This document shows positions 8,745-13,228 of a stretch of DNA of 64,000 bases, piece by piece. Source of the DNA: Nocardioides mesophilus (GTDB taxonomy: Bacteria > Actinomycetota > Actinomycetes > Propionibacteriales > Nocardioidaceae). The notes beneath the pieces were generated by a model that saw nothing but the letters and a program-made list of their open reading frames with translations, had not been told where the DNA came from and ran no database searches. The DNA lies in the NCBI RefSeq assembly GCF_014395785.1, contig NZ_CP060713.1:2136501-2200500 (forward strand). The letters are read 5' to 3'. Every line of letters begins with the position of its first letter. Within the stretch, counting starts at the first letter, position 1. The translations under genes and the position numbers were made by a program.

Positions 8745-9512
8745 GTGGACAAGGTCGTGGCAACGGCCGCGGAGGCGGTGGCCGACATCACGAGTGGTGC
8801 GACGGTCGCCGTGGGCGGCTTCGGGCTGTGCGGTGTTCCGGCGGTGCTGATCGATGCGCTGCTCGCCGCCGGCGTCTCGGACCTGCAGGCGGTGTCGAAC
8901 AACTGTGGCGTCGACGAGTGGGGCCTGGGCCGGCTGCTCGCGGAGAGGCGGATCCGCCGGATGATCTCCTCCTACGTCGGGGAGAACAAGGAGTTCGCGC
9001 GGCAGTTCCTGCACGGCGAGCTGGAGGTCGAGCTGACGCCGCAGGGCACGCTCGCGGAGCGGATGCGGGCCGGCGGCTCCGGGATCCCCGCGTTCTTCAC
9101 CGCGACCGGGGTCGGCACCCAGGTGGCCGAGGGCGGCCTGCCGTGGCGCTACGACTCCGACGGCAACGTGCTCGTCGCCTCCCCGCCGAAGGAGGTGCGC
9201 TCGTTCGCCACGGCCGAGGGGGAGAAGGACTTCGTGCTCGAGGAGGCGATCGTGGCCGACTTCGCGCTGGTGCGCGCCTGGAAGGGCGACCGGCACGGCA
9301 ACCTCGTCTACCGGCAGTCGGCGCGCAACTTCAACCCGTTGGCGGCGATGTGCGGTCGGGTCACGATCGCCGAGGTCGAGCACCTCGTGGAGCCCGGCGA
9401 GATCGACGCGGACGACGTACACACCCCCGGGGTGTTCGTGCAGCGAGTGGTGCCCCTGACGCCTGAGCAGGCGGCGGACAAGCGGATCGAGAAGAGGACG
9501 GTGCGTTCCTGA
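8745..9512 (+). CDS. scoA: 3-oxoacid CoA-transferase subunit A
   Basis: This 255-residue family I CoA-transferase alpha subunit moves CoA between succinyl-CoA and a 3-oxoacid such as acetoacetate or 3-oxoadipate. Family features are the CoA-binding [16 protein letters not shown] near the start, then [15 protein letters not shown] and [14 protein letters not shown]. The GTG start follows GGGAGGAG at a good distance. It overlaps the B subunit by one base (TGATG). Which 3-oxoacid is used cannot be decided; scoAB, atoDA and pcaIJ are alike at this level. Confidence 0.88.
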
Positions 9513-10192
9513 TGGCCGGTCACGGGTGGAGCCGCGAGGAGATGGCGGCGCGAGCGGCCTCGGAGCTGACCGACGGGTCTTACGTCAACCTCGGGATCGG
9601 GCTGCCGACCCTGGTGCCCAACTACGTCGCCGAGGACGTGGAGCTGGTGCTCCAGTCGGAGAACGGCATCCTCGGCGTCGGGGCCTACCCGACCGAGGAC
9701 GCCGTCGACCCGGACCTCATCAACGCCGGCAAGGAGACCGTGACGCTGCGCAAGGGGGCGTCGTTCTTCGACTCCGCGATGTCGTTCGGGATGATCCGCG
9801 GCGGCAAGATCGACGCCGCGATCCTCGGGGCGATGCAGGTCTCGGCCTCCGGTGACATCGCGAACTGGATGATCCCCGGGAAGATGGTCAAGGGCATGGG
9901 CGGCGCGATGGACCTGGTCCACGGCGCCAAGCGGGTGATCGTGCTGATGGAGCACGTCGCCAAGGACGGCACCTACAAGATCGTCGAGGAGTGCTCGCTG
10001 CCGTTCACCGGTCGCCGCGTGGTGCAGCGGATCATCACCGACCTCGCCGTCATCGACGTGGTGGACCCCTCGACCGGTCGGCTCGCCACCTCGGGCACCC
10101 ACGGCGAACGCGCGCTGAAGCTGGTCGAGCTCGCGCCCGGTGTCACCGAGGACGAGGTGCGCTCCAAGACCGAGCCGGCCCTCATCACCTGA
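9512..10192 (+). CDS. scoB: 3-oxoacid CoA-transferase subunit B
   Basis: This 226-residue beta subunit carries the catalytic glutamate in SENG (Glu50), within [16 protein letters not shown], where the CoA thioester intermediate forms. [14 protein letters not shown] and the C-terminal section with [19 protein letters not shown] are typical of ScoB/AtoA. It is co-transcribed with scoA. The pair lies between the conserved ArsA pair and the DUF4177/RidA genes, which are neighbours in M. tuberculosis, so it belongs to the accessory segment. Confidence 0.9.
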
Positions 10193-10221
10193 CCGCCGAC
10201 GGCCCCTTCTGCCCCGTGTGC

Positions 10222-10309
10222 CCGCCGATTACCACGGTATGTCGGCTGTTTGATGCTTCCCATGGGCCGCAGCCCATGGGAAGGATCAGAAGACCATGGG
10301 AAGTACGGC
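10222..10309. repeat. left copy of an ~88-bp inverted repeat flanking the DUF559 gene
   Basis: This segment aligns without gaps to the reverse complement of 11392-11479, with about 14 mismatches by eye. Shared blocks include GATTACCACGG, ATGTCGG, GCTTCCCATGGG and AGTACGGCG. Within it, 10251-10266 and 10273-10288 form a 16-bp hairpin with one mismatch around the 6-nt loop CCGCAG. It begins 29 nt after the scoB stop and ends 23 nt before the nuclease-like gene's stop. Confidence 0.8.
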
Positions 10310-10332
10310 GGGGCCGTCTGGGCCCAATCGTC

Positions 10333-11271
10333 TCAGGCGGCCACTCTGAAGAGGTGGCGGATCCGCTCTGCTGTCTCCACCGGCTGGGAAAGGTCGTCCC
10401 ACACGAGTCGCACCATCCCCCAGTTGGTGATCTCGCGCAGCCGGTCCTCGCGGATCTTCTCGCGGAACACCGCGTCGCCCGGTTTCTCGCCGGGACGTAG
10501 CAGACGGCCGTACTTCATCTTGCCGTCGAACTCCCCGAGCAGTCCGAGCTCCGGCCAGGCGAAGTCGGTCACCCCGACCAGCTGGCCACGTCCGTCGTGA
10601 ACCTCGAACTGGAGATCGGGGGCGGGCAGCCGTTGCGCCCAGAAGAGGAACTTCGACCGCGACTCGCCCACCGACTCCGAACGGGGGTCGGACAGGCGCA
10701 GCGCGATGTCGAGTCGGCGGTGTCGCGGCCACCACCGCATCGCCTCGTGCGTCTGCTCGAGCTGCTCCCACGAGCACCCACGCCGACGCACCGCATCGAG
10801 GACCACTACACCGGACTCGGTGCTGCCCATCGAAGCCGTTTCGAGCGCCGCCCGCGCTGGTCGGACGGCGGTGACACCGTCCACCGCGACGGTGTCGTCG
10901 TCGAGACAGAGCCCTTCGTGGTGCTGCACACCGGCCTCAGTCCTACCGGCTCCGCCGTCGGTCCGGGTGACGTGGACGAGGGAGAGATCCACATCGTGCA
11001 CCTCGAGACCGTGGTGCAGGGCGGCGCTGACGTGGCTGGCGACCACTCTTCCCGCGAGCCTGCTGACGACCGAGCGGGAGGTGGTGCGGTGTCGCTCGGA
11101 GGTGTCGGCGCGGGCCCAGAGGTCCGAGAACGTGTAGGCGCCGGGCCGGATCCGGTGCCACAGCTTCGCCCGGACCGCGCGTCTGATCGACTGGTCATCG
11201 TGGCCGGCGCGCAGCGCCTCGGCCCGTGTGAAGAAGCCGCGTGCCTCTGCCAGTGCTCGGAGCTGGTCCAT
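10333..11271 (-). CDS. AbiEi-type winged-helix plus DUF559 (Vsr/PD-(D/E)xK-like) protein
   Basis: The 312 residues have two parts. Residues about 1-50 (RGFFTRAEALRAGHDDQSIR, then LWHRIRPGAY) match the winged-helix head called AbiEi antitoxin domain. Residues about 195-312 form a DUF559 domain of the very-short-patch-repair/restriction fold. Possible catalytic residues are E203, D236 (in VTDFAWPE) and D249-G-K251 (in GEFDGKMKYG). No toxin partner lies next to it. Start ATG 11271 is chosen because it begins the conserved domain; the frame stays open to 11406 inside the right repeat. Such genes are frequent, often multicopy and functionally uncharacterised in actinobacteria. The flanking inverted repeats suggest it travels as a unit. 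Confidence 0.75.
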   Translation of the reverse strand: MDQLRALAEARGFFTRAEALRAGHDDQSIRRAVRAKLWHRIRPGAYTFSDLWARADTSERHRTTSRSVVSRLAGRVVASHVSAALHHGLEVHDVDLSLVHVTRTDGGAGRTEAGVQHHEGLCLDDDTVAVDGVTAVRPARAALETASMGSTESGVVVLDAVRRRGCSWEQLEQTHEAMRWWPRHRRLDIALRLSDPRSESVGESRSKFLFWAQRLPAPDLQFEVHDGRGQLVGVTDFAWPELGLLGEFDGKMKYGRLLRPGEKPGDAVFREKIREDRLREITNWGMVRLVWDDLSQPVETAERIRHLFRVAA

Positions 11272-11391
11272 GCAGCCATGTTCTGCTCGCCGCCGCGCGG
11301 TCGGCAGCCGGTTCGGACGAGCTGTGCAGAGCGGGGGCCGCGCGCCGTTGTGGACATGTCCCGGCGGCAGCACCGAGACGGTCGCCCCGGA

Positions 11392-11479
11392 CGCCGTACT
11401 GCCCATGGTTCTTTGACGCTTCCCGTGGGTTGTCGCCCATGGGAAGCGTCAAACATCCGACATCCCGTGGTAATCCGCG
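11392..11479. repeat. right copy of the ~88-bp inverted repeat flanking the DUF559 gene
   Basis: This is the inverted counterpart of 10222-10309. It contains a long hairpin: TTTGACGCTTCCCGTGGG (11412-11429) pairs with 11436-11453 over 18 bp with a single G-U, around the 6-nt loop TTGTCG. The hairpins of the two copies have the same loop length and the same CCCATGGG core. The rest of 11272-11518 contains no gene. Confidence 0.8.
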
Positions 11480-11518
11480 GCCAGGAGGGGAGAACGGCCC
11501 GCTCGCTCGTCCGGGGGG

Positions 11519-13228
11519 TTAGAGGTCGGGGTGCTTCGCGGCCAGCCGGTAGGCGCCGGAGTGGAACACCAGCGGCTCGCCGCCGGGGGCGTCGTAGGAC
11601 TCGATCTCGCCGAGGAAGACCACGTGGTCGCCGGCGTCGACGCGTTCGGTACGGCGGCACACGAACGTCGCGACCGTGCCCTCGAGCAGCGGCGGGTCGT
11701 CGCCGGCGAGGGCCACCCCGTCGAACTTGTCCGACCCTGAGGTCGAGAACTGCCGGGACAGGTGGTGCTGGTCGGCCGCGAGCACGTTGACCGCGAACCG
11801 GTCCGCGGCCTCGAAGGCCGGCAGCGACGGCGAGGACACCGCGGCCGCCCAGAGCACCAGCGGCGGGTTCAACGACACCGACGTGAACGAGTTGGCGGTC
11901 ATCGCGAACCGCTCCCCGCGGTGGGTGGCGGTGACGACGGTGACGCCGGTGGCGTACTGCCCCAGTGCGCGGCGCAGGTCCCGGGCGTCGAAACGGTTCC
12001 CGGCGGCGGCCCGCTGCTCGGCGAGGAACGCCGCGGAGGCGGCCTCGTCGAACCACCAGGGCTCGAACAGCCGGGCGTCGTCGAAGCCGGCGGCGATCCG
12101 CTCCGCCACCCCGGGCAGCCGGCCGGCCTCGGCGAGCACCGCGAGCTGGTGCGGGGCCCGCGGCTGCAGCCAGTCGTTGGTCCACCGCGTCGCGAACCGC
12201 GCCCAGCCGCGCCAGAAGTGGTCGAAGGTCTGGCCCATCCAGTCCTCGTCGAAGGCCCCGGTGTGGTTGACGATCGCGTCGAGGTAGAACGAGGCCGACT
12301 TCACCGCGGTGTTCGCGCCCTGGCTGGTCACCGGGTCGTTGAGCACCACCGCGTCGGCCATCCCCAGCACCGTCGCCCCGCTGGGCAGGGTGCCGACGGG
12401 GCGCCGGACGACCGGGGTGAAGGTGCCGCGCAGCACCGCCCGGTCGTCGACGAGCTCGGCGCCGGCGATCCGGACCGCCTCGGCGGGGAAGTGCTCGGCG
12501 AGCACGGTGCGGAGCCGGTCGAGGTGCTCGCCGGGGGTCCGCACGTCCTCCCAGACGTCGGCCGGACCGCCCGGGACGCCCTCGACCACCATCACGTCGC
12601 AGGGCCCGTCGACGGTGAGCGCGGGGCAGGTGAAGCACTCGCCGACGCCCTCCACGACGTGGTAGCGCAGCGCCGGGCCGGCCGGGTCCGCCGCCACCCC
12701 GCGCAGGTAGGTGAGGGCGGCGACCCGCCGCGGCGAGGAGTATGGCGTCCGCTCCGCATCGACCTCGAAGAGGTCGGCCAGCCCGCCGCGGCCGGTGGAG
12801 ATGACCACCAGGTCGTGCCGGGCGGCGAGCTCCTCGACGTCCTCGATGCCGGCGTTGCGGACCACGACCTTGCCGCCGAGCCGCTGGACCGCCTCCAGCA
12901 CCGCCGGCAGCTTCAGCCGCAGGTCCACCGACCGGGCCGGCGCCGACAGCGGCGCGTCGAAGGCGCTGGTGGCGCCGTCGGCGGTGCGCAGGTCGAAGGA
13001 GAGCCGGTCGACCGACGGCGCCGCCGGCAGCAGCGCGGTCACGCCGAGCGTGGTCTCGAGGTCGAGCGCGGACTCGAAGGTGACCTGGCTGGACATCACG
13101 GCGCCGTCGCGGATCTCCTCCGCGGTCCGGTCGGTCACCAGGGTCACCTGGCAGCCGTGGCCGAGCAGGCCGAGCGCGAGGGTGGTGCCGGCCGGGCCGG
13201 CTCCGACCACGGCGACGCTGGGGGACAT
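11519..13228 (-). CDS. one-component styrene monooxygenase (StyA-flavin reductase fusion, StyA2B type)
   Basis: The protein has 569 residues. The N-terminal ~410 form a styrene-monooxygenase-like FAD epoxidase with the dinucleotide motif VVGAGPAG (7-14). The C-terminal ~150 (from RRALGQYATGVTVVTATHRG) form an NAD(P)H:flavin reductase of the StyB/HpaC family. Fusions of this kind (StyA2B of Rhodococcus opacus) make their own reduced FAD and epoxidise styrene or oxidise indole and sulfides. No styrene-oxide isomerase or phenylacetaldehyde dehydrogenase is nearby, so the natural substrate is open. It follows the esterase gene by 42 nt on the same strand and is probably co-transcribed. Confidence 0.88.
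   Translation of the reverse strand: MSPSVAVVGAGPAGTTLALGLLGHGCQVTLVTDRTAEEIRDGAVMSSQVTFESALDLETTLGVTALLPAAPSVDRLSFDLRTADGATSAFDAPLSAPARSVDLRLKLPAVLEAVQRLGGKVVVRNAGIEDVEELAARHDLVVISTGRGGLADLFEVDAERTPYSSPRRVAALTYLRGVAADPAGPALRYHVVEGVGECFTCPALTVDGPCDVMVVEGVPGGPADVWEDVRTPGEHLDRLRTVLAEHFPAEAVRIAGAELVDDRAVLRGTFTPVVRRPVGTLPSGATVLGMADAVVLNDPVTSQGANTAVKSASFYLDAIVNHTGAFDEDWMGQTFDHFWRGWARFATRWTNDWLQPRAPHQLAVLAEAGRLPGVAERIAAGFDDARLFEPWWFDEAASAAFLAEQRAAAGNRFDARDLRRALGQYATGVTVVTATHRGERFAMTANSFTSVSLNPPLVLWAAAVSSPSLPAFEAADRFAVNVLAADQHHLSRQFSTSGSDKFDGVALAGDDPPLLEGTVATFVCRRTERVDAGDHVVFLGEIESYDAPGGEPLVFHSGAYRLAAKHPDL

Follow-up and report, generated by a model that had tools for sequence, protein, structure and literature searches.

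An AbiEi-Vsr-like nuclease gene of Nocardioides mesophilus lies between inverted copies of a dispersed hairpin repeat

Results

The nuclease locus and its inverted arms

The window analysed here is a stretch of 64,000 nucleotides (positions 2136501-2200500) of the Nocardioides mesophilus genome (G000), which consists of a single contig of 4,488,624 bases (4.49 Mb). A gene for a 312 aa protein (10333..11271, minus strand) is found between two convergent genes. The left neighbour (9512..10192, plus strand) encodes a CoA transferase (Pfam CoA_trans, 1.5e-48) and is syntenic in G006, G061 and G003, and the right neighbour (11519..13228, minus strand), also syntenic, encodes a styrene-monooxygenase-like/flavin reductase fusion (Pfam Flavin_Reduct and Smoa_sbd). 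The first-pass annotation had described inverted hairpin repeats of about 88 bp enclosing the central gene. An inverted-repeat search confirmed these as two arms of 99 nt each (10212..10310, plus strand; 11392..11490, minus strand), which are 82% complementary, are spaced by 1081 nt, and form the longest inverted pair within 9800-11900. Both were also recovered by genome BLAST.

Each arm contains a strong hairpin by DNA folding, with core hairpins at 10250..10289 (plus strand) and 11413..11452 (minus strand). The 46-nt cores gave fold z-scores of -7.7 and -8.4, and 0 of 200 shuffles folded as well; the loops are 4 nt in the fold model, compared to 6 nt by the first-pass count. Alignment of the 21 copies of the repeat present in the genome (see below) revealed an outer end motif A (GATTACCACGGGATGTCGG), and on the opposite side of each copy A again in inverted orientation or else a different end motif, B (ACCATGGGAAGTACGG). 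In the left arm, motif A (GATTACCACGG.., letters checked) is at 10227..10245 and motif B at 10293..10311 (both plus strand); in the right arm, B is at 11392..11409 and A at 11457..11475 (both minus strand). The order of the whole element is A-hairpin-B, gene, B-hairpin-A, with motif A facing outward in both arms.

The nuclease gene and its product

A longer ORF of the nuclease gene starts at an ATG within the right arm (11406), and a longer protein beginning there may be made. Judged from the sequence, the start at 11271 is favoured: with this start the AbiEi_4 match opens at residue 2, and the ORF of the closest homologue begins at the same residue. The N-terminal half (residues 1-195; 10687..11271, minus strand) resembles AbiEi antitoxins: Pfam AbiEi_4 matches the protein with an E value of 4.5e-8 (the other match is one sub-threshold family), the PADLOC AbiEi models match at 2.2e-12, and structure comparison finds AbiEi matches of moderate Z and high rmsd. 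The C-terminal half (residues 198-312; 10336..10680, minus strand) shares the Vsr/EDxHD fold, with a Z of 10.2 to Vsr that is level with the 10.1 obtained for a mitoribosomal protein, and this comparison backs the Vsr-like nuclease proposed at first pass. The active-site residues E203, D236, E247, D249 and K253 are invariant in 80 of 80 bracketed loci, a conservation suggesting that this half is likely a DNA-cutting nuclease. We take Lys 253 to occupy the position of the His in the EDxHD motif.

A DUF559 domain had originally been assigned to this protein, and that label was rejected in favour of AbiEi plus a Vsr/EDxHD fold. Pfam DUF559 (PF04480) was not reported for the protein at E<=1, and at E 0.01 none of the 37 homologues used for profile searches (a set from which L047 was removed for an internal stop) matched its profile; the same profile matches three other places of the N. 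mesophilus genome above its cut-off. NCBIfam had no match for the protein or the 37 homologues, PHROGs had none for the protein, and a sequence search of solved structures returned only weak Bax1 matches (E 0.33 and above).

The first-pass statement that no transposase is present holds for the Y1 transposase family (PF01797), to which the genome has 0 matches, and no recombinase was recognised by Pfam in the four neighbouring genes scanned, two per side, which encode CoA transferase subunits, a monooxygenase/flavin reductase and a hydrolase. The AbiEii nucleotidyltransferase toxin was absent (Pfam) from these genes, and PADLOC gave no defence match among them. Close copies of the nuclease gene in its own genome are limited to itself, plus two weak relatives. 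The nuclease is 55% identical between G000 and G006, and the neighbours are 84.7% and 75.8% identical.

A second, weakly related nuclease-like gene of this genome (L033; G000:C1:1469707-1471470) lies within arrays of a different palindromic repeat (GCAACGAGCG..CGCTCGTTGC), which is found at about six other places of the genome.

A dispersed repeat family

A BLAST search with the left arm gave 36 matches in the N. mesophilus genome (37 in a second search). When merged, the 36 amount to 21 separate sites, two of which are the arms and 19 solitary copies, of the kind that the first-pass annotation had proposed to look for. By eye, most solitary copies are single units (A with inverted A, or A with B) that look like one arm and not like two joined arms. 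In the core stem, 330 of the 357 cells across the 21 copies are standard pairs (G-T counted); double changes are few and covariation is weak. Neither a shared flanking target around the 21 copies nor a GTAG tag in their alignment was seen by eye.

Bracketing of homologous genes

Homologues occur in 281 of 294 genomes of the family Nocardioidaceae at E<=1e-15; bracketing was assessed in a list of loci and not in every genome with a homologue. Within the genus, seven genomes were searched, and homologues at E<=1e-20 are present in six of them, that of N. mesophilus included. In 5 of the 6 other loci in the genus, the gene is enclosed by the longest inverted pair; at L036 the second-longest pair does so, the longest being situated within one side. 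Except at L034, the arms in the genus are unlike the N. mesophilus arm in sequence.

Bracketing was scored by comparing the two 400-bp flanks of a gene and taking their best inverted match, with a threshold of 32; three of 80 loci (L074, L087 and L099) and the repeats of genus loci (L120-L124) were left out. Scores above the threshold were obtained for 88 of 109 loci, or 81 of 100 after removal of nine duplicates, recognised by 100% flank matches, and correction of L125. Among 545 cross-paired flanks used as a control, the 99th percentile was 32.1 and the maximum 172, the latter taken to be duplicate loci paired with each other; 272 displaced windows gave a 99th percentile of 27.3 and a maximum of 32. 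A draw of 296 genomes from the phylum contained 11 (that of N. mesophilus included) with matches at E<=1e-40. Outside the N. mesophilus genome, 13 of 17 loci in this draw scored above 32, and 252 cross pairs reached at most 26. Two of the 17 are from Nocardioidaceae, and 11 of the 15 from outside the family are bracketed, with L236 partly of low complexity.

The arms commonly fold as hairpins: z-scores below -3 were found in 112 of 160 arms, compared to 1 of 156 control stretches, and in 64 of 80 loci one or both arms fall below this value. Arm sequences differ between clades. The earlier suggestion that other nuclease genes might lie between the same 88-bp repeats therefore stands for the bracketing, by inverted hairpin repeats in 81 of 100 loci, and falls for the repeat itself, which differs between genomes, each matching its own gene. 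A candidate universal arm motif, GGKATGYHGG, is enriched in arms (1.68/kb, compared to 0.064/kb outside) and was rejected since it is present in only 16 of 87 loci.

Arms above the threshold are lacking in 19 of 100 loci, at least two of which (L042, L103) have a truncated flank. An explanation by loss of the active site was rejected, as the catalytic residues are intact in 20 of 20 readable rows from unbracketed loci (L125 left out). Because the armless loci that were read retain an intact active site, arms are not needed to keep the gene.

Cognate dispersal and likeness of paired arms

The arms of 13 loci from 12 genomes were joined into one query and searched for in those genomes and in G000. 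Among the 150 matches listed, in which the arms are counted too and palindromes can score twice, 147 fall in the arm's own genome; genomes are unevenly represented among them (G237, with 41 matches, contributes one). Totals per genome range from 16 (G002) and 18 (G089) up to 58 (G006) and 59 (G157), and G000, the arm of which was absent from the joined query, had 2. The N. mesophilus arm, searched for in 12 genomes, gave 37 matches in G000, 17 in G006, two weak ones in G061 and none in the nine others. G000, G006 and G061 (the last belonging to another genus) hold an ortholog at the same site with paired arms; among the nine genomes without the arm, the site was compared across both flanks in G001, G002 and G003 only.

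Similarity between the two arms within a locus exceeds that between orthologous arms for 25 of 27 syntenic pairs, which were hand-picked from loci chosen for having like arms and so are biased toward this result. Flank identity in these pairs is about 77-97% (one-sided for two of them). That paired arms are alike is consistent with concerted evolution.

Site history and genomic placement

Empty sites in relatives, to which the first-pass annotation had also pointed, were found for both the main site and solitary copies. Between the two flanking stop codons there are 10 bp in G003, compared to 1326 bp in G000; this gap may represent loss instead of the original state, because G061 shares the site. 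In G001 and G002 (L151, L159), about 1.1 kb of other sequence lies between the same neighbours, and at L151 of G001 a hairpin adjoins the first stop codon. Histories of solitary sites were read for L005, L008 and L012, leaving out L004, L007 and L010. The L005 site is empty in G003, G004 and G005 and has its own diverged hairpin in G006; the L008 site has the element in 0 of 6 relatives, and the L012 element is absent from G002. At the sites compared, no target-site duplication or exact junction was seen, the intergenic flanks being unalignable. The gene stays at one site across species in several groups, extending into a second genus (L031, L040, L125), and different clades have it at different sites.

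Solitary copies are mostly intergenic, and elements are often positioned between convergent genes. By a crude gene caller that misses genes, such a position is seen for 52 of 87 elements with a gene (duplicates included) and for 10 of 18 solitary copies in N. mesophilus, compared to 7 of 41 gene pairs in the window. Of 20 copies fetched from G157, 18 are intergenic and 9 lie between convergent genes; the corresponding figures for G034 are 12 and 5 of 15.

DnaA-box-like sites upstream of the gene

Upstream of the nuclease gene is a DnaA-box-like 9-mer, ATGTCCACA (11349..11357, minus strand), with one mismatch to TTGTCCACA, the high-affinity DnaA box of Streptomyces and Mycobacterium (PMC4285127). 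This box is not significant alone, the window having 9 matches where 5.2 are expected. A search from 220 bp upstream to 30 bp inside the start of the match, allowing one mismatch, found a similar 9-mer in 60 of 101 loci (one duplicate, and L125 at wrong coordinates, included), compared to 2 of 390 control windows, which fall largely in neighbouring genes, and none of the 101 regions downstream. Orientation is strongly skewed, with 68 hits one way and 5 the other. The boxes are mostly about 60-110 bp upstream of the gene, and several loci have two, ~28 bp apart. A box is also present at L032, an unbracketed relative in the N. mesophilus genome. The upstream box may be a putative DnaA site or, equally, an operator for the AbiEi half.

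Discussion

The bracketing, the dispersal of each repeat in the genome of its own gene and the likeness of paired arms, taken with the fold of the protein and the analogy to REPtrons, lead us to infer that the enzyme would recognise and cut the hairpins and so spread them. We consider it likely that this is a partnership resembling that of REPINs and RAYTs, with an AbiEi-Vsr nuclease in place of an HUH transposase maintaining or spreading its cognate hairpins. The AbiEi half would recognise the end motifs of the arms, and the nuclease half would nick or cut at the hairpin. In favour of this reading, an AbiEi antitoxin binds inverted repeats (PMC7319586), and I-Bth0305I, an EDxHD homing nuclease, dimerises on a target of nearly 60 bp (PMC3943268). 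Repair or strand transfer, perhaps tied to replication, could then copy the hairpin unit into new intergenic places, and the same process could keep the two arms alike. On a broader scale, we lean towards the view that AbiEi-Vsr nucleases drive the spread and homogenisation of genome-specific hairpins across Actinomycetota, as a convergent counterpart of REPIN-RAYT systems, with expression possibly tied to replication via the DnaA-box-like sites.

GTAG-type REPs and REPINs are tied to HUH tyrosine transposases (PMC3733652, PMC2817692), and RAYT genes keep the same site across species (PMC2817692). A comparison with RAYT genes between REP palindromes had been drawn at first pass, and it gains support from the solitary copies, the recurrent bracketing and the empty sites. 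The features shared with REPtrons are a gene between two inverted, palindrome-containing repeats, repeats that are dispersed and co-evolve with the enzyme, and a fast-evolving gene with orthologs that stay in place (PMC2817692, PMC8266576). The present enzyme differs in combining AbiEi with a Vsr/EDxHD fold, without an HUH/Y1 domain. The arms are longer, with one or two hairpins and no GTAG tag seen by eye, and the 16 to 59 matches in each genome that had an arm in the joined query contrast with 37 to 427 perfect REP copies in Stenotrophomonas (PMC2817692). The system works like a REPtron but is not one, because the HUH/Y1 domain that defines the enzyme of REPtrons is lacking. TIRtrons likewise have a gene between long inverted repeats able to form dispersed families (PMC3733652), but their TIRYTs are IS200/IS605-type tyrosine transposases.

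Homing-like spread, by which the nuclease would cut element-free sites and repair from an element-bearing copy would insert the element, appears unlikely. Known homing depends on homologous flanks, so the solitary copies at unrelated sites, with no common flanking target seen by eye around the 21 copies, count against it. The C-terminal half shares the catalytic-domain fold of Vsr and of I-Bth0305I; the present protein differs from both in its added AbiEi-like half and its link to dispersed hairpins.

A classic transposon, in which gene and arms would move together, the arms being terminal inverted repeats and the solitary copies derived MITEs, would account for the outward-facing motif A of the inverted arms, the empty site in G003 and the different sites occupied in different clades. 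We regard it as rather improbable, given that the genome has one close copy of the gene, that the gene keeps its site from species to species and even in a second genus, that no target duplication was seen and no recombinase was recognised among the four neighbours scanned, and that the solitary copies resemble, by eye, a single arm and not a joined pair.

A defence or toxin-antitoxin role, with an AbiEi-like regulator and a nuclease acting against phages or plasmids and the hairpins serving as operators, decoys or self-markers, draws on the PADLOC AbiEi match and on the binding of inverted repeats by the AbiEi antitoxin of type IV toxin-antitoxin systems (PMC7319586). The present protein resembles that antitoxin in its N-terminal half by Pfam, PADLOC and fold, but is fused to a nuclease, and its four scanned neighbours have no defence match. 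An operator role leaves both the dispersed copies and the inverted downstream copy unexplained, and we think there is little chance that defence is the function. Least credible of all, and already disfavoured, is that terminator-like hairpins are spread by some other host process with the nuclease gene merely among them: the many copies between convergent genes, in N. mesophilus, G157 and G034, would suit this, but the arms around the gene in 81 of 100 loci, and also in other families, speak against it, as does the distribution of the N. mesophilus arm, which occurs in all 3 genomes with a known ortholog at this site and in none of the 9 others searched.

The partnership of an AbiEi-Vsr nuclease with its hairpins may be a new class of mobile repeat system in bacteria. 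It is called categorically new because such systems are sorted by enzyme and none with an AbiEi-Vsr enzyme was found; titles and the beginnings of abstracts in the open-access literature link no AbiEi, Vsr or DUF559 nuclease to flanking or dispersed hairpins. Sorting by architecture may make it a variant of the REPtron idea. Either way, the layout of REP and REPIN systems recurs around an enzyme unrelated to HUH transposases. If the nuclease does move hairpins, then hairpin-repeat populations evolved at least twice in bacteria, and the question of why bacteria keep them could be tested in a second, independent system.

Some loci depart from the common arrangement. At L127 and L036, the arms take the form of hairpin arrays in which side motifs are repeated, reminiscent of BIME mosaics. 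Four loci of a close clade (L049, L050, L051 and L054) share one site and have an intact active site and no detectable arms, and are possibly a domesticated branch. The flanks of L066 and L076 are similar to those of this clade, but both loci carry arms.
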